In this document: one piece after another, positions 9,751 through 28,205 of the stretch
Position numbering within the stretch: the first letter of the stretch is position 1
Layout of the letters: each line of letters begins with the position of its first letter
From: Dehalococcoidia bacterium
GTDB lineage: Bacteria > Chloroflexota > Dehalococcoidia > GIF9 > AB-539-J10
Direction: 5' to 3'
Length of the DNA stretch: 32,722 nucleotides
NCBI GenBank assembly: GCA_014859205.1
Contig: JACUUR010000007.1
Span: 1 to 32,722 of the forward strand
The notes under the pieces: model-generated
Databases searched by the model: none
The model's input: the letters and a program-made list of their open reading frames with translations, nothing else
What the model was told of the DNA's origin: nothing
Program-made: the position numbers and the translations under genes

Positions 9751-12606
9751 CTACCAGCGGAGGGGCTTCTGCCAGGCCTCCTTCAGTTCAGCAAGTGAGG
9801 ACGAGAGCACCGGGCTTCCAGCCAGGCCGTATACTACCAGACTCTGTTTCGCGGTGACCCGTCCGATGACGGCGAAGTCGACTCCGGTCAGGCTCTCCTC
9901 GAACGCGGCACTATCCTGGGGAGCCACCTCCACCAGAAAGCGCGTGTTCGATTCAGAGAAAAGCACGATGTCGTCACGAGATATCTCCTCGCCCAGCGGG
10001 ACCTGCCTGAGATGGATTTCTATGCCCAGTTCGCCGGCGAATGCCATCTCGGCGGCGGCCACCCCGATGCCGCCCTCACTGCAATCATGACAGGCCCTGG
10101 CCAGGCCTGCCTCGGTGGCCGTGCTGAGGGCGTCCATCAGTTGCTTCCCTTTGCCGGGGTTCACCCTGGGCACATTGTTTCCGATGTAGCCATGAATGCC
10201 GTAGTAGTGCGAACCACCCAGTTCGTTCCAGGTGGTGCCCACGATATAGATGAGGTCGCCCTCCTGCTTGCAGTCCATGGAGATCGCCTTGTTGACATCG
10301 GGCATCACCGACAGCGCGGATATCAGCAGCGTGGGGGGAATGCAGATGCTTTCATGTTCGGTCTCGTACTCGTTGTACAGACTGTCCTTGCCCGAGATGA
10401 ATGGAGTCTCATATCCAAGTGCTATGTCGTAGCAGGCCTGCGCTGCTCTGACCAGCCCGCCCAGTCTGTCAGGTTTATCCGGATTTCCCCAGCAGAAATT
10501 GTCGAGCAGGGCCACTCGGCGAAGGCTGCCGCCGACGGCAACGATCTGCCTCAATGCTTCATCTATTGCCGAGGCGGCCATCCAGTAGGGGTCGATGTCC
10601 CCGTACTTAGGGTTGATGCCATTGGAAACGATGACTCCCCTGTCTGAACCCAGTGTCGGCCTGATGATAGCGGCATCCCCCGGGCCATCAGCGTGCGCTC
10701 CCACCAAAGGTTTGAGGACGCTGCCGCCCTGCACCTCATGGTCGTACTGGCGTATGACCCATTCCTTGGAGCAGACGTTCCAGGAGCCCAGGATGCGCAG
10801 TAGGTCCTCGCGAAGGTCGAAAGGTTGCGGGAAGTCCGGCTCAGGGAATTGCGGCGGCTGCCATATCGCCTTTCGCTCGACCTGCGGCAGTCCGCCATGC
10901 AGGAATCTCATGTCCAGATCTGCGACCTGACTCGCTTCGTAGAACAGCTGGAGCCGCTGATCTCCTGTGAACTCGCCAATCACCGTGGCCTCCACGTCTT
11001 CGTTCCGAAAGAGCTCAATCAGTTGCTTGACCGTACCCGGCCGAGCGGCCAGTATCATTCGTTCCTGCGATTCTGAAAGCCATATCTCCCTGTAGGAAAG
11101 GCCGGAGTACTTCAGGGGCACTCGCTCCAGGTGGATGCGGGTCCCGGTTTCTCTGGCCATCTCCCCCACTGCAGATGACAGCCCGCCCCCGCCGCAATCG
11201 GTGACGCGCCGGTACAGTCCCAGGTCTCTTGCCTTGAGCAGCGCATCGGTCAGTTTCTTCTCCATGATGGGGTTTCCTATCTGAACGGAACTGGCGGAGA
11301 CGTCCTCGGACTCCCTGGTAAGCTCCGCTGAAGCAAAGGTTACACCATGAATCCCGTCGCGTCCGGTCCTGCCTCCCACCAGGACGACCAGATCCCCGGG
11401 CTCCTGTTGACCTATCTGGGCCAGGGCGGTCGGTATCAGTCCCACTGTTCCGCAGAACACCAGCGGGTTGCCCACATATCGTTCGTCGAAGAGCACGGCT
11501 CCGTTGAGAGTGGGAATGCCGAGGCGATTTGCGTAGTCGGCGACCCCTGCACGAACGCCTCTGAAGACCCGTCGAGGGTGCAGGACTCCTTCGGGAAGCC
11601 CCTCATAGGGGAAGTCGGGCGGGCCGAAGCAGAACACGTCCGTGTTCATGATGGGTCTGGCGCCGAGGCCTGTGCCCAGCACATCGCGGATGACGCCGCC
11701 GATTCCCGTTGCGGCCCCTCCGTAGGGCTCCAGGGCTGATGGGTGATTATGCGTCTCCACTTTGAAGCAGACCGCATGGTCGCCGTCGAAGTCGATAACC
11801 CCGGAATTGTCCTGAAAGACCGACAGACACCACGGCTTGTTCAGTTCCTCAGTGACTCTCATGATGGTGCTCCTGAACAGGTTGTCGACAGTTATGCCGC
11901 CGAGTCTGATCTTGCTCTTGAAGGTCTTGTGAACGCAGTGCTCAGACCAGGTCTGTGCAAGGATCTCAAGCTCCACGTCGGTGGGATTGCGGCCCAGTGA
12001 GGAGAAGTGCTCCCGAATCGCCCTCATCTCCTCCAGATTCAGCCACAGCCCGTCCTTGCTTACCTCCATCAGTGCGTCATCGTCCGCGCCGAGCAGATCG
12101 ACTCTGCGCAGGGCGAACTCGTATTTCACAGCTCTTGTGGAGATGGCCTCGCGCCCTGTGACGACATGCTGGATCACCGGATTGACCAGCAGCTTGTCAC
12201 AGATCGATCGGATGTCCTCGTCCGAGAGGGCGCCCCACAGCAGATACGTCTTCGCCGTTCTGACTGACTCAACGGTGCTTATGCCCAGGTCCAGGATTCC
12301 CTTCTTGATGCTCTCCTCAACGGGGTCCATGACCCCGGAATTATAGGCAACCTCAATGACATGAACGCCCCTCGGCGCTGCTTCGGCCGCCCCGGCATAA
12401 GAGTATTCCTCAATGACAGGGTCGGCAAGCAGTTCCCGGCAGATCCTCTCTGCCTCGCCTTCATCCAGGGCTCCTTCCAGCAGATAGACGTCGTTGACCC
12501 CCACCCGGTCAGGGGCTGCAATCCCGAGGTCACGTATATCATCCTTGAGGGCTTCTCCGCGTGCATCGCGGAGGTCGCTCTTCACTGATACCTCAATCCG
12601 GTACAA
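9751..12606 (-). CDS. purL: Phosphoribosylformylglycinamidine synthase with two N-terminal tandem PurS-like domains (PurS-PurS-PurL fusion)
   Basis: 951 aa; internal repeat at 80-residue offset: DLGIAAPDRVGVNDVYLLEGALDEGEAERICRELLADPVIEEY vs DLGISTVESVRTAKTYLLWGALSDEDIRSICDKLLVNPVIQHV; then PurL core with WSEHCVHKTFKS, VETHNHPSALEPYGGAATGIGGVIRD, GGRTGRDGIHGVTFAS. Confidence 0.94.
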   Translation of the reverse strand: MYRIEVSVKSDLRDARGEALKDDIRDLGIAAPDRVGVNDVYLLEGALDEGEAERICRELLADPVIEEYSYAGAAEAAPRGVHVIEVAYNSGVMDPVEESIKKGILDLGISTVESVRTAKTYLLWGALSDEDIRSICDKLLVNPVIQHVVTGREAISTRAVKYEFALRRVDLLGADDDALMEVSKDGLWLNLEEMRAIREHFSSLGRNPTDVELEILAQTWSEHCVHKTFKSKIRLGGITVDNLFRSTIMRVTEELNKPWCLSVFQDNSGVIDFDGDHAVCFKVETHNHPSALEPYGGAATGIGGVIRDVLGTGLGARPIMNTDVFCFGPPDFPYEGLPEGVLHPRRVFRGVRAGVADYANRLGIPTLNGAVLFDERYVGNPLVFCGTVGLIPTALAQIGQQEPGDLVVLVGGRTGRDGIHGVTFASAELTRESEDVSASSVQIGNPIMEKKLTDALLKARDLGLYRRVTDCGGGGLSSAVGEMARETGTRIHLERVPLKYSGLSYREIWLSESQERMILAARPGTVKQLIELFRNEDVEATVIGEFTGDQRLQLFYEASQVADLDMRFLHGGLPQVERKAIWQPPQFPEPDFPQPFDLREDLLRILGSWNVCSKEWVIRQYDHEVQGGSVLKPLVGAHADGPGDAAIIRPTLGSDRGVIVSNGINPKYGDIDPYWMAASAIDEALRQIVAVGGSLRRVALLDNFCWGNPDKPDRLGGLVRAAQACYDIALGYETPFISGKDSLYNEYETEHESICIPPTLLISALSVMPDVNKAISMDCKQEGDLIYIVGTTWNELGGSHYYGIHGYIGNNVPRVNPGKGKQLMDALSTATEAGLARACHDCSEGGIGVAAAEMAFAGELGIEIHLRQVPLGEEISRDDIVLFSESNTRFLVEVAPQDSAAFEESLTGVDFAVIGRVTAKQSLVVYGLAGSPVLSSSLAELKEAWQKPLRW

Positions 12607-16261: not shown

Positions 16262-18253
16262 TCATGATCGTCTGAACCGCCATGGCCAGCGATTGCGCTC
16301 GGGAGGCGGACACCACGCATCGAAATCGTCGGGCGTCTCGATGATAATGGTATGGCCCTCCTGGCGGGCCTTTACTTCCGGAGGTAGATATCCCTCGAAG
16401 CGGCGGATCTCCCAGAACTGCATCTGGTCCGGAAAACGTACCAGCAGCCTTTCCTTTTCTCTTGAGATCTTTGCCTCGCGCCGTCCGTAGACGAGGTCAA
16501 TCCATCTCCTTCTGCCCAGGTCATACTGGTTCTCAACGGGCTGTTGCAGGAAGAAGTCGGGCTGTCTTCTGCCGGCGTGTTCATAGAGCGTACGCATTAC
16601 AGCACGGGCAACGAAAAGCTCGTCATCGCTGAACTCGTCCTCTGCTGCCAGGTGTTGCATGTACAGCTTCGAGAACCAACGGAATATGTGATTATCGAAT
16701 TCCAGGATGCTCTTGAGTCTCTTCTTCTCCTGTCCGGTCGAGGCGAAATGGACATCAAAGTCGATCCGCTTAACGCGCGATCTTGCCCAGTCCCGAAGCC
16801 TGGGCTCATTTGAGGACATCAGTATTTGCGGCATGTCCGAGCTTGATGTCCACCAGGTCTCCCAGTATGACTTGATCACATCGGCTGCCCATGGTTTGCC
16901 TGAGAACTCCACGTCGTCAAAGGTCAGCGGGAAGACGGTACCTATGGCGGCGGCTCCCTTTATCTTTCGGCGGGTGAACTCCTCCCTGCGCAAAGGCTCA
17001 ATGTCCTGACCTGTAAGCAATCTCAAGGCGAAGCGGAAGAAAGTTGTCTTGCCGTTCTGGGACGGCCCATACACATATAGAAACCGAGGGCCTTTGGGGT
17101 CTGCCTGGCCGTAGGCCAACCGTCTTCTGCGCATATATTCGTTGGCAAACGGCGAGAAGAAGACGTAAAGCAGCGCCTCGAACATACTGGCTTTGGCGAA
17201 CTTGGGGTCAGGGCTCTTGGCCAGGTCCACCGTATGTATGTAGCCTTCGAGGTGTTCCAGTGCTGTGTTGACTTCCGCTCTATCAGCGGGTGGTTGGGAT
17301 AGATGGGCTATGGTGCCTTGCAGTCCCAGCCGGAGTTCACATCTGTCTGGGTCGATGCGCATCAAGGGTATCCCGTAGGTGACATGTACATGGTTGATGA
17401 AGGCCGAAGCCCGCAGTGTAGCCTGATTCCCCGCCGTGGAGGGAGACAGAGGTTTCAGAAAACGTTCCAGTTCCTTTCTGGCAGCCGGTGCCTCCGGCAG
17501 CTTGACGGTCACGACACTGGCCTCAGCCGTGTCTGAGGTCAGCAGGGACTGGATCGACATCTCCCGTAGCACCTTTGCCGTCTCGAGTTCAGAGGCGGGC
17601 AGGGCTGTCCCCTTCAACCAGACCTCAATCAACTCCCGCCTGGAGTCGCCGTGATGCTCCTTAAGCAGCCTGGTCAGGTCGTCCATGAACAGAGTGCAGT
17701 TCCTGGCGTGCGAACGATAGTCCCGTAACACCTGGTCGAGGAACTCGTGATTGGCGGGAAGATCGGCATACCAGGCGTAGTTGACCTGCGTTGCCTTGCG
17801 GGCCGTGTCGGTAAGGTTGGCGGAAGTCTGTATTATGCGCGAACTCTCAGAGCTATCGAGTATGTACAGCTTGGTATGTATACTGCGACGCGGGACCAGT
17901 ATGCGCAAAGAACCGGCCTCCACACGTGCAGCCAGCAACTCCAACACTTCCAGGGGCTTGTCCTGAAGTTCCTGCCGCAGGGCGGGCTCCGTCATATCTT
18001 CGCCCACGACAATCTCGATCTCCTGGTAGCCGCGCTTCTCGAAGAATTCCCGCAGCAGGTCGGACGACACCACATAGGAGACGGCGCGCATTCTCGTGAA
18101 GCCGTCAAAGAGTGACTCGAAATCGTGCCGGCGGGCGATAACGCGCGTTTCGACATCGCCTATGCCTCGAAAGAGGCTGCCCTGCAAAGCTGTGCTCTTC
18201 ACTTGGCCTGTCAGTGCCCCGGGTTCCTCCCTATTGTACAACATCTCAATCAT
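16262..18253 (-). CDS. Phospholipase-D-like (single HKD) nuclease domain fused to an SF3-helicase-like P-loop ATPase
   Basis: ORF 16262-18385; true start probably 18253 because an inverted repeat with terminator features lies in the longer N-terminus. In ORF numbering: HKD IHTKLYILD...TSANLT (H170/K172/D177/S188/N190), Walker A GPSQNGKT (440-447, bases 17045-17068), Walker B PLTFDDV, SF3 motif-C-like PQILMSSNE, then RSRVKRIDF. Confidence 0.75.
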   Translation of the reverse strand: MIEMLYNREEPGALTGQVKSTALQGSLFRGIGDVETRVIARRHDFESLFDGFTRMRAVSYVVSSDLLREFFEKRGYQEIEIVVGEDMTEPALRQELQDKPLEVLELLAARVEAGSLRILVPRRSIHTKLYILDSSESSRIIQTSANLTDTARKATQVNYAWYADLPANHEFLDQVLRDYRSHARNCTLFMDDLTRLLKEHHGDSRRELIEVWLKGTALPASELETAKVLREMSIQSLLTSDTAEASVVTVKLPEAPAARKELERFLKPLSPSTAGNQATLRASAFINHVHVTYGIPLMRIDPDRCELRLGLQGTIAHLSQPPADRAEVNTALEHLEGYIHTVDLAKSPDPKFAKASMFEALLYVFFSPFANEYMRRRRLAYGQADPKGPRFLYVYGPSQNGKTTFFRFALRLLTGQDIEPLRREEFTRRKIKGAAAIGTVFPLTFDDVEFSGKPWAADVIKSYWETWWTSSSDMPQILMSSNEPRLRDWARSRVKRIDFDVHFASTGQEKKRLKSILEFDNHIFRWFSKLYMQHLAAEDEFSDDELFVARAVMRTLYEHAGRRQPDFFLQQPVENQYDLGRRRWIDLVYGRREAKISREKERLLVRFPDQMQFWEIRRFEGYLPPEVKARQEGHTIIIETPDDFDAWCPPPERNRWPWRFRRS

Positions 18254-18284
18254 CCTATTCTGCGTCGGCAGGCTGTAATAGCCA

Positions 18285-18322
18285 GGAAAAGGGGGCGCTT
18301 CGATGTGATCTGAAACGCCCCC
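18285..18322 (-). terminator. Rho-independent terminator downstream of katG
   Basis: Minus strand: GGGGGCGTTTC (18322-18312), 10-nt loop, GAAGCGCCCCC (18301-18291; 11-bp stem with one G-U), followed by TTTTCC (18290-18285). About 80 bp after the katG stop. Confidence 0.65.
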
Positions 18323-18400
18323 AGGTATTACTACTGCCCTGTCAACCGATGATGATTGTCGCTCTCTAATGCTCCTCAGAGGCACTTGTACAGGTGTGCT

Positions 18401-20629
<2,229 letters not shown>

Positions 20630-20666
20630 TCAGGCATCATGTCACCGAGGCAGTAATATGATACCA

Positions 20667-20694
20667 TTGACCGCGCCTTCTGGTGTGATATAAT
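20667..20694 (+). promoter_or_regulatory. Sigma70-type promoter (TTGACC-N16-TATAAT) for the small ORF at 20768
   Basis: TTGACC 20667-20672, TATAAT 20689-20694, 16-bp spacer; divergent from katG. Confidence 0.6.
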
Positions 20695-20767
20695 AGTCAT
20701 GTAAGACTCAGATCCGGGCAATACTGGGCCGGGTGGGCCGGCAAGCGATGGTGAGGGGGCGAATATC

Positions 20768-21034
20768 ATGCCGTGCAGAATTGGAATAACCACAGACCCG
20801 GAAGGGATGAGGGATTACTGGCAGCACCAGGCCCCGGGCTTCACGAACTGGGAGATACTGAGCATGTTCAGAAGTGAAGCAGCGGCCAAGGAGTATGAGA
20901 CAGGTTACGCCCTCAGAAACCGATGTGATGCTACGCTGGGAGGGTTCGAGGGGCCTCGCACAGCACGGGAAGCCAAGACCCAGTATGACTGGTGGTACGT
21001 CTACCATTTTGACTATACGGCTGCTACGCCCTGA
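20768..21034 (+). CDS. Small uncharacterised protein (88 aa)
   Basis: MPCRIGITTDPEGMRDYWQHQAPGFTNWEILSMFRSEAAAKEYETGYALRNRCDATLGGFEGPRTAREAKTQYDWWYVYHFDYTAATP; GAGGGGG RBS and consensus-like promoter upstream. Confidence 0.7.
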   Translation: MPCRIGITTDPEGMRDYWQHQAPGFTNWEILSMFRSEAAAKEYETGYALRNRCDATLGGFEGPRTAREAKTQYDWWYVYHFDYTAATP

Positions 21035-21164
21035 TCGCATTCTGGGCAGACTGGATTCCGTGGACACCATACCGGTTAGCTCTGCTCCAATCAGGCACCG
21101 GGGCTCCCGACTTACGGATTCCGAAACCAGGCATCGTAGCGATGCTTGTGGGGTACTCGCCAGC

Positions 21165-21587
21165 CTATGCAGCGGCATCTTGTTGAAAGCCCCTGATCAC
21201 CTTCAGGTTGGGAAAGGGATAATGCTCAGCATTGTTGGTGAGTAGGGGGGCATTCAGCTGTAATGCCGTCGCCCCGATGATAGCATCGGCAATCCCGACA
21301 GTGACACCTTTCACGCGCAGGACTCCCAGCATCGTGCCCGCCCTGCGGGCAATGGGGATATCAACAGGGACTGAGACTAGGCCGTCCAGAAAGGCATTGG
21401 TTGCCTCACCTTCATCGGGTTTCATGCCCTGATAGATCTCAAGATGGGTAAGCGTGCTTATAGCCAGGAGGCCTTCGCTGCCCCAGTGCTCAAGGAGGTG
21501 CCGCGAATACTCACGTTCCCTAAGGAAATCAATGACAATATCAGTATCTACTATACAGGTAACGCCCTTGACACTACTGCTTTGCAT
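21165..21587 (-). CDS. vapC: PIN-domain toxin, VapC-like
   Basis: 140 aa; CIVDTDIVIDFLRE, STLTHLEIYQG, GIADAIIGATALQLNAPLLTNNAEHY: acidic residues typical of PIN nucleases; overlaps the upstream antitoxin-like gene. Confidence 0.85.
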   Translation of the reverse strand: MQSSSVKGVTCIVDTDIVIDFLREREYSRHLLEHWGSEGLLAISTLTHLEIYQGMKPDEGEATNAFLDGLVSVPVDIPIARRAGTMLGVLRVKGVTVGIADAIIGATALQLNAPLLTNNAEHYPFPNLKVIRGFQQDAAA

Positions 21588-21870
21588 CAGAGTTTCCCAA
21601 TCGTTCCAGACGCCCGTTGTCTGACTTTCTGATAGAGCGAACGTAGGCAGTGGATTCCTCAGGAGTAGCCAGGTCAGGGTGATTCTTACGCTTCCAGGCG
21701 CCGAAGCCTTTCTCGAGGGCTACCGCCTGCTTCTGGTAGGCTATGTAGTGCTCCACAGCGTGAGTGAGGAAGGAGCTTATCTCCCCGCGGGGCACGATAG
21801 ACCGTATTTGGCCCGCCAGCTCCCCAGGCAGCGTTATCGACATCTTCTCTGTCTTTGCCTTACCTCCCAT
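21574..21870 (-). CDS. Ribbon-helix-helix-like antitoxin (VapB-type partner)
   Basis: ORF to 21900; preferred start 21870 with AGGAGG RBS. KTEKMSITLPGELAGQIRSIVPRGEISSFLTHAVEHYI RHH-like N-terminus, charged C-terminus; 14-bp overlap with the toxin gene. Confidence 0.75.
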   Translation of the reverse strand: MGGKAKTEKMSITLPGELAGQIRSIVPRGEISSFLTHAVEHYIAYQKQAVALEKGFGAWKRKNHPDLATPEESTAYVRSIRKSDNGRLERLGNSDAKQ

Positions 21871-21899
21871 TCCTTCCTCCTTTCTGCGATGATGCTTCA

Positions 21900-21934
21900 T
21901 ACTAATAGTACTACCAATGGTCTTACCCCGTCAA
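21900..21934 (-). promoter_or_regulatory. TA operon promoter with palindromic operator overlapping the -10
   Basis: Minus strand: TTGACG (21934-21929), N18, TACTAT (21910-21905). Palindrome TACTA-A-TAGTA at 21900-21910 and TAGTACTA at 21906-21913. Confidence 0.55.
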
Positions 21935-22089
21935 GAGTGGCTATACGATGATACTCCAAACTACTCCGAGGTATTGCAGCATTCAACTGCGACGGCGTCA
22001 CGTAGACGACTGCATGGGCGGTAACGGCCGTGACGCGCGTCTCTGGCGTTGTTTGACTATGGTGCCGGCATGCGGCTAGGATATGGGGT

Positions 22090-22713
22090 ATGTCCCCGGG
22101 GGCGAGGCGTCAATGGGCCGATGGCGAAGAACAGGCATGGGACAGGCTCGGGCTGGCCGCTCCTGCTGATGTCTGCTCCCGGGCGGGAGCGTCCTATGAT
22201 GACCGCTCCGGCGCGTATAGCCTCAAAGTGTTCAGCGCCGCCATAACGGTCAATCCGGGGCAGCGAGAGATCAGTGGCTCGGGTGCTCTCAGTGACATGC
22301 TCCTGGGAGGTCTTTCCTCCTATTCGCGCCTGTCCATACTGTGGTATCTGGCGCAGGCACAGGACATTCCGGACTCCGGCATCTTGAAGAATCCCCGAGA
22401 CCTGCCGGGCGGGCTCATCTTCTCACGGGGCTCGCATGCCCTGCCCCTGGAGAGACTGGCAAGCGAGTATGGCCATGACGGTGCTGCATTCGTGAGCAGG
22501 GGAGTATCGCTGGGTGGGAAGCCGTGCGACTATCATGACGCCTCCGTCAAGCTGTATCCATTTCCACGAGTCCCGGTGCTGCTGGTGCTCCGGCTGAGGA
22601 GCTATGAGTTTCATGCCGAGGCGTTACTGCTGCTGGACTCCACCTGCCGGCATCACCTGCCGATGGATGTAGTGTGGTCTACCGCCATGATGTCGGTCCT
22701 GGTCATGTTGTGA
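22090..22713 (+). CDS. DUF3786 domain protein
   Basis: 207 aa; YSLKVFSAAITVNPGQREISG, LPGGLIFSRGSHALPLERLASEYG, YPFPRVPVLLVLRLRSYEFHAEALLLLDSTCRHHLPMDVVWSTAMM resembles DUF3786 C-termini. Confidence 0.65.
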   Translation: MSPGARRQWADGEEQAWDRLGLAAPADVCSRAGASYDDRSGAYSLKVFSAAITVNPGQREISGSGALSDMLLGGLSSYSRLSILWYLAQAQDIPDSGILKNPRDLPGGLIFSRGSHALPLERLASEYGHDGAAFVSRGVSLGGKPCDYHDASVKLYPFPRVPVLLVLRLRSYEFHAEALLLLDSTCRHHLPMDVVWSTAMMSVLVML

Positions 22714-27104: not shown

Positions 27105-28205
27105 ATGAACACCATTGAGAGAGCGTTGATGCATGCCCTGTTCACCCATCTGCACCACAACATCGATCGAGCGGTTGATTTTGCAGCGTTTGGGGAGCTA
27201 AACCGCATGGTCAGTCGAAGCTGGCCGGGGGCGCTGGTTGTGGGGCCGGGAGATGATGCTGCCGTGGTTCGGGTGCCCGGGTGGGAAGGCTATCTTGTAG
27301 CCAAACAGGAGAGTCATTGTTCTCCCTGTGTGCCCCGGCCTTATGATGCCGCTGCCACGGGAGCCGGGGGCGCCATGCGGGATATCACAGCCATGGGCGG
27401 CAGACCGCTTTTCCTGATGGATTTCATAGGCACGAGACCGCTGGAAGAGGAGGTACTGGTGGGGCCGTGCGGCTTCGCAGGCAAGTGCACCTGCGGGAAA
27501 TGCAGGACGATGACCAGCCAGGAGAGATTGAACCTGATGGTGCGGGGGATTAGGGACATGTGCGAGGCCATGGAAGTGTTCGTTATTGGAGGGGGGCTTT
27601 CCACCTCTTTCAGCGACATAGTGCCGGCGGTGGTGGTGGCGGTCATCGGCAAGCTGGTCACCGAGGCACCGCTAACCAAGCCGGCCAAGGCAGCAGGAGA
27701 CAGGATCATCCTGATTGGTGAGACGGCCGATGATGGGAACGACACTTTGTACAGAGCGGGGCTGGTCAGAGAGATGCGGCCGGCCAGAGCCCTGTTCGAG
27801 CAGGAGAGGACCACTCTCGAGGCCACTCTGGCTGCCTTTGAGGTGGGCGGTATCCATGCCTGTTCCGATCTGGGGGCGGCCGGCATCGGGGCTGGGATCT
27901 GCGAGTCGGCCAGATATGGCGGCCTCGGGGCGAGGGTAGACCTGTCGGCGGTGCCGGTCAGCGTAGGAGGGCTGACTGCCGAGGAGATCCTTATTTGCGA
28001 GACTCAGGCCAGGATGGTGCTACAGGTCGCTCCCGACAAAGCCGATGAGATGATGTCGGCCATCCGGTCACGAAACGGTGTCGCCGCAATAGTCGGTGAG
28101 ATCAACGACGACGACAAAGAGGTCTTCGAGTACGACGGGCAGGTCATAGCCTCTATTCCCAACAAGCCCTCTGCCGAGATGCTGGAGAGCTTGACGCAGA
28201 GATGA
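27105..28205 (+). CDS. AIR synthase-related / divergent single-unit PurL-like protein with Cys-rich segment
   Basis: 366 aa; VVGPGDDAAVVRVPG, ESHCSPCVPRPYDAAATGAGGAMRDITAMGGRPL (aligns to PurL [25 protein letters not shown]), CGFAGKCTCGKC, CSDLGAAGIGAGICESA; GGAGG RBS. Confidence 0.8.
   Translation: MNTIERALMHALFTHLHHNIDRAVDFAAFGELNRMVSRSWPGALVVGPGDDAAVVRVPGWEGYLVAKQESHCSPCVPRPYDAAATGAGGAMRDITAMGGRPLFLMDFIGTRPLEEEVLVGPCGFAGKCTCGKCRTMTSQERLNLMVRGIRDMCEAMEVFVIGGGLSTSFSDIVPAVVVAVIGKLVTEAPLTKPAKAAGDRIILIGETADDGNDTLYRAGLVREMRPARALFEQERTTLEATLAAFEVGGIHACSDLGAAGIGAGICESARYGGLGARVDLSAVPVSVGGLTAEEILICETQARMVLQVAPDKADEMMSAIRSRNGVAAIVGEINDDDKEVFEYDGQVIASIPNKPSAEMLESLTQR

Follow-up and report, generated by a model that had tools for sequence, protein, structure and literature searches.

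The gene described here lies on the minus strand of a 32,722-nucleotide stretch of Dehalococcoidia DNA (the window). Its reading frame, 16262-18385, is intact and comprises 707 codons from a GTG. A 663-aa form (16262-18253) starts at an internal ATG (18253) of the same frame, and in the alignment of homologues the conservation of the relatives begins just within this shorter form. The features identified are the following.

16262..18253, minus strand: AgaP-like PLD-nuclease/SF3-type ATPase gene, conserved 663-aa form (in-frame upstream GTG at 18385 giving 707 aa)
17750..18160, minus strand: PLD (HKD) nuclease domain, about residues 32-168 of 663, from AF2 and Foldseek, a weak Pfam RE_NgoFVII match and PADLOC ZacB
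17816..17878, minus strand: catalytic HxK(x)15SxN motif with H126, K128, S144 and N146 (663 numbering), invariant in 21 sequences
16265..17521, minus strand: linker and C-terminal ATPase region, residues 245-663 (AF2 pLDDT 85, pTM 0.84; Foldseek; hhalign to DUF5906/SF3)
17045..17068, minus strand: Walker A GPSQNGKT, with G, G and K invariant
16913..16918, minus strand: Walker B DD (D446, D447), D447 invariant and D446 nearly so
16769..16816, minus strand: SF3 motif C-like SSN (S480-N482) and R493/K495 (candidate arginine finger), with N482, R493 and K495 invariant

The gene is flanked by an AMP-ligase gene and katG, and neither integrase nor phage context was identified around it, in agreement with the preliminary description, which had placed it among housekeeping genes. 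In the sister contig L006 AMP-ligase and dihydrolipoamide-dehydrogenase-like genes again frame its counterpart, and katG and the small genes are missing. The segment missing there between the dihydrolipoamide-dehydrogenase-like and agaP-like genes corresponds to window 18401-22713, comprises katG, three small genes (one with a PIN domain) and DUF3786, and represents an insertion or deletion block. The PIN-domain gene (21165-21587) overlaps a small upstream gene (21574-21900), the two being a probable VapBC-like toxin-antitoxin pair. Elsewhere in the window a PurS-PurL fusion (9751-12606) adjoins PurQ, and 27105-28205 holds another AIRS/PurL-like gene, a shorter one.

The AgaP-like gene is single-copy in its own genome (1.67-Mb assembly, 95.7% complete) and the nearest named relatives of the 663-aa protein come from Dehalococcoidia MAGs. 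Compared with the sister copy in L006, at 87% amino-acid identity, the gene has an overall dN/dS of 0.114, with 0.054 for a 170-codon segment of the ATPase; compared with the copy in L007 the ratio is 0.085, with synonymous sites near saturation. The gene is under purifying selection, and from the intact frame, the conservation and the low dN/dS it is therefore considered real and maintained. Scans of the protein with Pfam, NCBIfam and PHROGs gave no family above threshold, the only sub-threshold Pfam matches being AAA and RE_NgoFVII, so that the domain calls made by eye in the preliminary description exceed the standard library. A sequence search of the PDB was of no help either.

The N-terminal half is a PLD nuclease domain. 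In the full AlphaFold model (pLDDT 80) the best Foldseek matches of this part were the restriction enzymes SauUSI and NgoAVII R-protein, followed by Nuc, NucT, BfiI and Tdp1, with E values of 1e-7 to 1e-4 against SauUSI, NgoAVII, Nuc and NucT. The HxK...SxN motif claimed at 17816-17878 coincides exactly with H126, K128, S144 and N146, and each chain carries a single HKD half-site. Across 21 homologues, which span two domains of life, H126, K128, S144, N146, N158, G396, G401, K402, D447, N482, R493 and K495 are invariant, which is far from chance. Of the PLD-type HxKxxxxD...SxN originally proposed, the HxK and SxN residues stand as invariant, and the D does not, being variable among relatives (E, T or other). 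The canonical HxK(x)4D(x)6GSxN also differs in a spacing 3 residues longer here and in the replacement of its G by T; since the functional AgaP likewise departs from the canonical motif, the word canonical was given up and the assignment as a PLD nuclease was kept. A phospholipase role is less likely: PLD restriction enzymes head the fold matches, and the nearest relative of known function is a toxin/defence protein that acts through its nuclease. Membership in ZacB was considered from a PADLOC profile match (E=7e-4) and rejected, as the match spans the PLD region only and is common to AgaP and to a more distant PLD-ATPase protein; a literature search found no paper using the name ZacB.

The C-terminal half contains the ATPase motifs as originally read: Walker A GPSQNGKT, the DD pair and the SSN...RSRVKRIDF stretch at about 16750-16816. 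With the isolated C-terminal region the SCCmec helicase Cch was the sole PDB match of Foldseek at E < 0.001 (partial TM-score 0.33), the SaPI5 primase-helicase, D5 and the NrS-1 C-terminal region (CTR) being much lower fold matches. Matches among viral models include primase-helicase-like proteins. To discriminate among AAA+ classes, profiles were compared with hhalign, one alignment being built from DUF5906 (SF3-type) proteins of Chloroflexota genomes and another from Thermoplasmatota MCMs. The ATPase matched DUF5906 with 96% probability (E 4.9e-9, 236 columns, identity 11%), and the controls gave 0.8% for MCM, 0.2% for UvrD and 0.2% for HerA; an SMC-like AAA family reached 34.5% over 24 P-loop columns only. 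An MCM origin had been considered because Cch was the best fold match, and was ruled out by this comparison. The Walker A, the acidic pair, the SN of motif C, the downstream Arg and the agreement of profiles support an SF3-type ATPase, through a link that is remote at 11% identity. Together with the PLD restriction-enzyme folds and the invariant motifs, these results bear out the fusion of a PLD nuclease to an SF3-like ATPase, for which the preliminary description had proposed AlphaFold and profile comparisons.

Several known proteins share one half or the other. SauUSI, an ATP-dependent, modification-dependent restriction enzyme and the best fold match, also combines a PLD nuclease with an ATP-driven motor, but that motor is SF2 and the one in the window protein is SF3-type. 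NgoAVII R-protein and BfiI have a single-HKD PLD nuclease domain in an enzyme against foreign DNA; they carry B3-like DNA-recognition domains and, unlike the window protein, no SF3 ATPase in their chain. The DUF5906/D5/P4-type SF3 primase-helicases resemble the ATPase half, D5 and the SaPI5 primase-helicase through weak fold matches, whereas the window protein has no primase domain and a fused PLD nuclease instead. A second Chloroflexota family with PLD and SF3-like domains (L056-L063) presents the same domain order and an ATPase part matching at 98.7% over 310 columns (hhalign), but forms a separate clade and has QxE after SxN, whereas the AgaP family has QxN, its last residue being the invariant N158 just downstream of SxN. 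The members of this second family, such as L062:8562-10613, are of about 680 aa, lie beside varied, seemingly housekeeping genes and sometimes occur several per genome (G398, G103).

The closest characterized relative is AgaP ('Ago-associated PLD') of the haloarchaeal APAP system. Searches of plasmids with tblastn retrieved haloarchaeal proteins that align to 81-88% of the query and are 26-29% identical to it (E down to 2e-71), and phmmer gave E 9e-80 to the copy of Natrinema pellirubrum. Identity to AgaP is about 29% over 85% of the length, and 24-29% across haloarchaeal members. The ago-agaP operon of the N. pellirubrum plasmid pNATPE02 is the locus on which Cheng et al. 2024 (PMC11442185) worked, and in its translated copy H105, K107, G157, S158 and N160 coincide exactly with the residues mutated there. 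H126, K128, S144 and N146 of the window protein correspond to H105, K107, S158 and N160, and the equivalent of G157 is T, A or G among the relatives. On these alignments, which cover the full length and retain the catalytic HxK/SxN residues, the window protein is a full-length homologue of AgaP. As reported in that study, AgaP alone is toxic, and its toxicity requires the HxK and the remote GSxN residues in vivo; plasmid restriction depends on its catalytic residues; AgaP boosts the immunity against virus that depends on Argonaute (pAgo), and it needs pAgo for the suppression of its toxicity.

That study presents AgaP simply as a protein with an N-terminal PLD domain; its main text makes no mention of an ATPase and uses 'helicase' for neighbouring genes and for systems other than AgaP (PMC11442185). 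The AgaP sequence nevertheless contains a Walker A GESNGGKG at 447, DD, SND and RxK, all aligned with their counterparts in the window protein, and this alignment indicates that the published AgaP also ends in a predicted SF3-type ATPase. A distance of about 50 residues between HxK and GSxN is stated as a hallmark of AgaP (PMC11442185). The H-to-S spacing is 48-53 in 6 of 12 haloarchaeal copies (the N. pellirubrum subclade) and 19 in the other 6; in those bacterial and Thermoplasmata copies that were measured, the window protein among them, it is 18, so the gap of about 50 residues marks one subclade. The window gene further differs from AgaP/APAP (Cheng et al. 2024, PMC11442185) in its location on a bacterial chromosome, that of AgaP being an archaeal plasmid, and in having no long-A pAgo gene adjacent to it. 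The preliminary description had recognized no named system with such an architecture; this was mistaken, since AgaP aligns over its full length with all catalytic and ATPase motifs in common. The description had also held that a characterised system of identical architecture would count against its reading: at the protein level AgaP is largely such a case, and at the system level it is not, as the pAgo partner is missing.

Full-length members were identified in Dehalococcoidia, Elusimicrobia and Thermoplasmata, where they are always sparse, occurring in 4 of 60 near relatives and 3 of 20 genomes of the genus, with about 8 full-length copies among 393 genomes of the class. No AgaP-like match was found in a phage collection of 50,697 records or in two viral-contig scans. 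In the tree the haloarchaeal copies group together (SH-aLRT 100), and the bacterial ones form a separate clade in which Elusimicrobia are nested among Dehalococcoidia; the window protein is placed in the bacterial/Thermoplasmata branch. The neighbours encoding pAgo are confined to the haloarchaeal clade, so the pAgo-free state is just as likely to be the ancestral one.

Six haloarchaeal loci (L035, L036, L037, L045, L046 and L048) have agaP beside a Piwi-domain pAgo gene, and haloarchaeal copies often adjoin UvrD/AddAB-like and DEAD helicases. In L040, L041, L042 and L044 (about 8.4-9.65 kb, minus strand), on haloarchaeal plasmids without adjacent pAgo, a 375-aa gene lies beside agaP. At its N-terminus it matches the corresponding region of the L037 pAgo (E=1e-10) and the remainder is DEDD-type exonuclease-like by eye; its product may be an alternative nuclease partner of AgaP sharing an N-domain with pAgo. 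No Piwi domain was found in the non-haloarchaeal loci examined, and no pAgo adjoins any bacterial or Thermoplasmata copy. With PF02171, no Piwi was detected in the window's own genome, nor in 14 of the 15 carrier genomes, several of which are incomplete drafts and in which this profile may miss divergent pAgos; absence of pAgo is thus strong only as a pattern across carriers. The single carrier with a Piwi domain has it on a different contig from the AgaP-like gene. At L095:705-4860, two genes of 301 and 323 aa tightly flank a Thermoplasmatota pAgo of 754 aa, whose genome carries an AgaP-like gene as well, not linked to it.

Most non-haloarchaeal copies stand by themselves among housekeeping genes, and no operon partner common to these loci was found. 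Two bacterial copies are inside tight RM/defence operons. The first (L065:643-8674) is compact, with gaps of 20-26 bases, and comprises a type ISP/IIG methyltransferase, the agaP-like gene and an SF1 helicase with a PLD domain; the second (L052) comprises a IIG methyltransferase, the agaP-like gene, a HerA/mad8-like gene and GmrSD. The L065 operon also resembles MkoA/MkoC and DrmC in PADLOC and is possibly a composite defence system. In L051 a DNA methylase and a Swt1-HEPN protein are encoded close to the agaP-like gene.

The reading preferred here, with a probability of roughly 0.6, is that of a stand-alone, Argonaute-independent PLD DNA nuclease of the AgaP family with an SF3-type AAA+ ATPase, acting against mobile DNA. 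The nuclease would probably be active as a dimer with one HxK/SxN half-site per chain, and the ATPase would most likely assemble on or travel along DNA, perhaps replicating or exposed plasmid or phage DNA, where it may control, direct or position the cutting by the PLD domain. By homology with AgaP, the protein would remove or disable mobile DNA. Defence had been proposed as a candidate role, and it is supported as the likely one by AgaP, the experimentally tested relative, being a defence nuclease (PMC11442185). The AgaP homology, the matching motifs, the restriction-enzyme fold matches, the patchy spread, the two defence operons and the dN/dS of 0.11 count for it; against it count the solo position of most copies, the lack of a common partner, the identity of about 29% to AgaP, the remote link of the ATPase to SF3, and the suppression of haloarchaeal AgaP toxicity by pAgo, for which no substitute was detected here.

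A chromosomal nuclease for DNA repair or replication stress, in which the SF3-like motor would load at forks or lesions, with the PLD domain trimming ends or protein adducts, is rather unlikely. It is consistent with the solo chromosomal site among housekeeping genes in most bacterial genomes, the strong purifying selection, the presence of Tdp1 among the fold matches, the helicases beside haloarchaeal copies and the RefSeq name of haloarchaeal members, 'tyrosyl-DNA phosphodiesterase'. However, the gene is very patchy even inside one genus, unlike core repair genes, some copies are within RM operons, the family member studied experimentally acts in defence, and there is one HKD half-site per chain, unlike Tdp1.

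Less probable still is a gene that served the replication or maintenance of a plasmid or integrative element and is now stranded on the chromosome, its PLD domain being a processing nuclease. SF3 motors are typical of element replication, the haloarchaeal copies are on plasmids and the best PDB match of the ATPase is encoded by SCCmec, but phage and viral-contig collections gave no match, no integrase, relaxase or replication genes were recognized near the bacterial copies, and AgaP is reported to be toxic and to cause plasmid loss (PMC11442185). The full-length homology to AgaP and the 14 carriers without detectable pAgo would also agree with the gene being the decaying remnant of an APAP (pAgo-PLD) system that has lost its pAgo. 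This is very improbable and is largely refuted by purifying selection (dN/dS 0.11 and 0.08), by motifs intact in all aligned copies and by the restriction of pAgo neighbours to the haloarchaeal clade, the pAgo-free state being just as likely the ancestral one.

The defence reading raises the question of what keeps the nuclease in check where no pAgo is found, given that AgaP is toxic on its own; the ATPase itself may be the gate or, alternatively, the bacterial branch may be less active. More tentatively, and with somewhat less than even odds, the family may comprise widespread Argonaute-free defence nucleases of bacteria and Thermoplasmata that sense or gate through an SF3-type motor, from which haloarchaea would have secondarily built the pAgo-coupled APAP, the ATPase being an essential part of AgaP itself. 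New in this family are the pAgo-free branch and the SF3-type ATPase half, which is absent from the main text of PMC11442185. If functional here, the protein would extend an experimentally proven, Argonaute-linked defence nuclease from haloarchaeal plasmids to bacterial chromosomes, where it would act with no detectable Argonaute.
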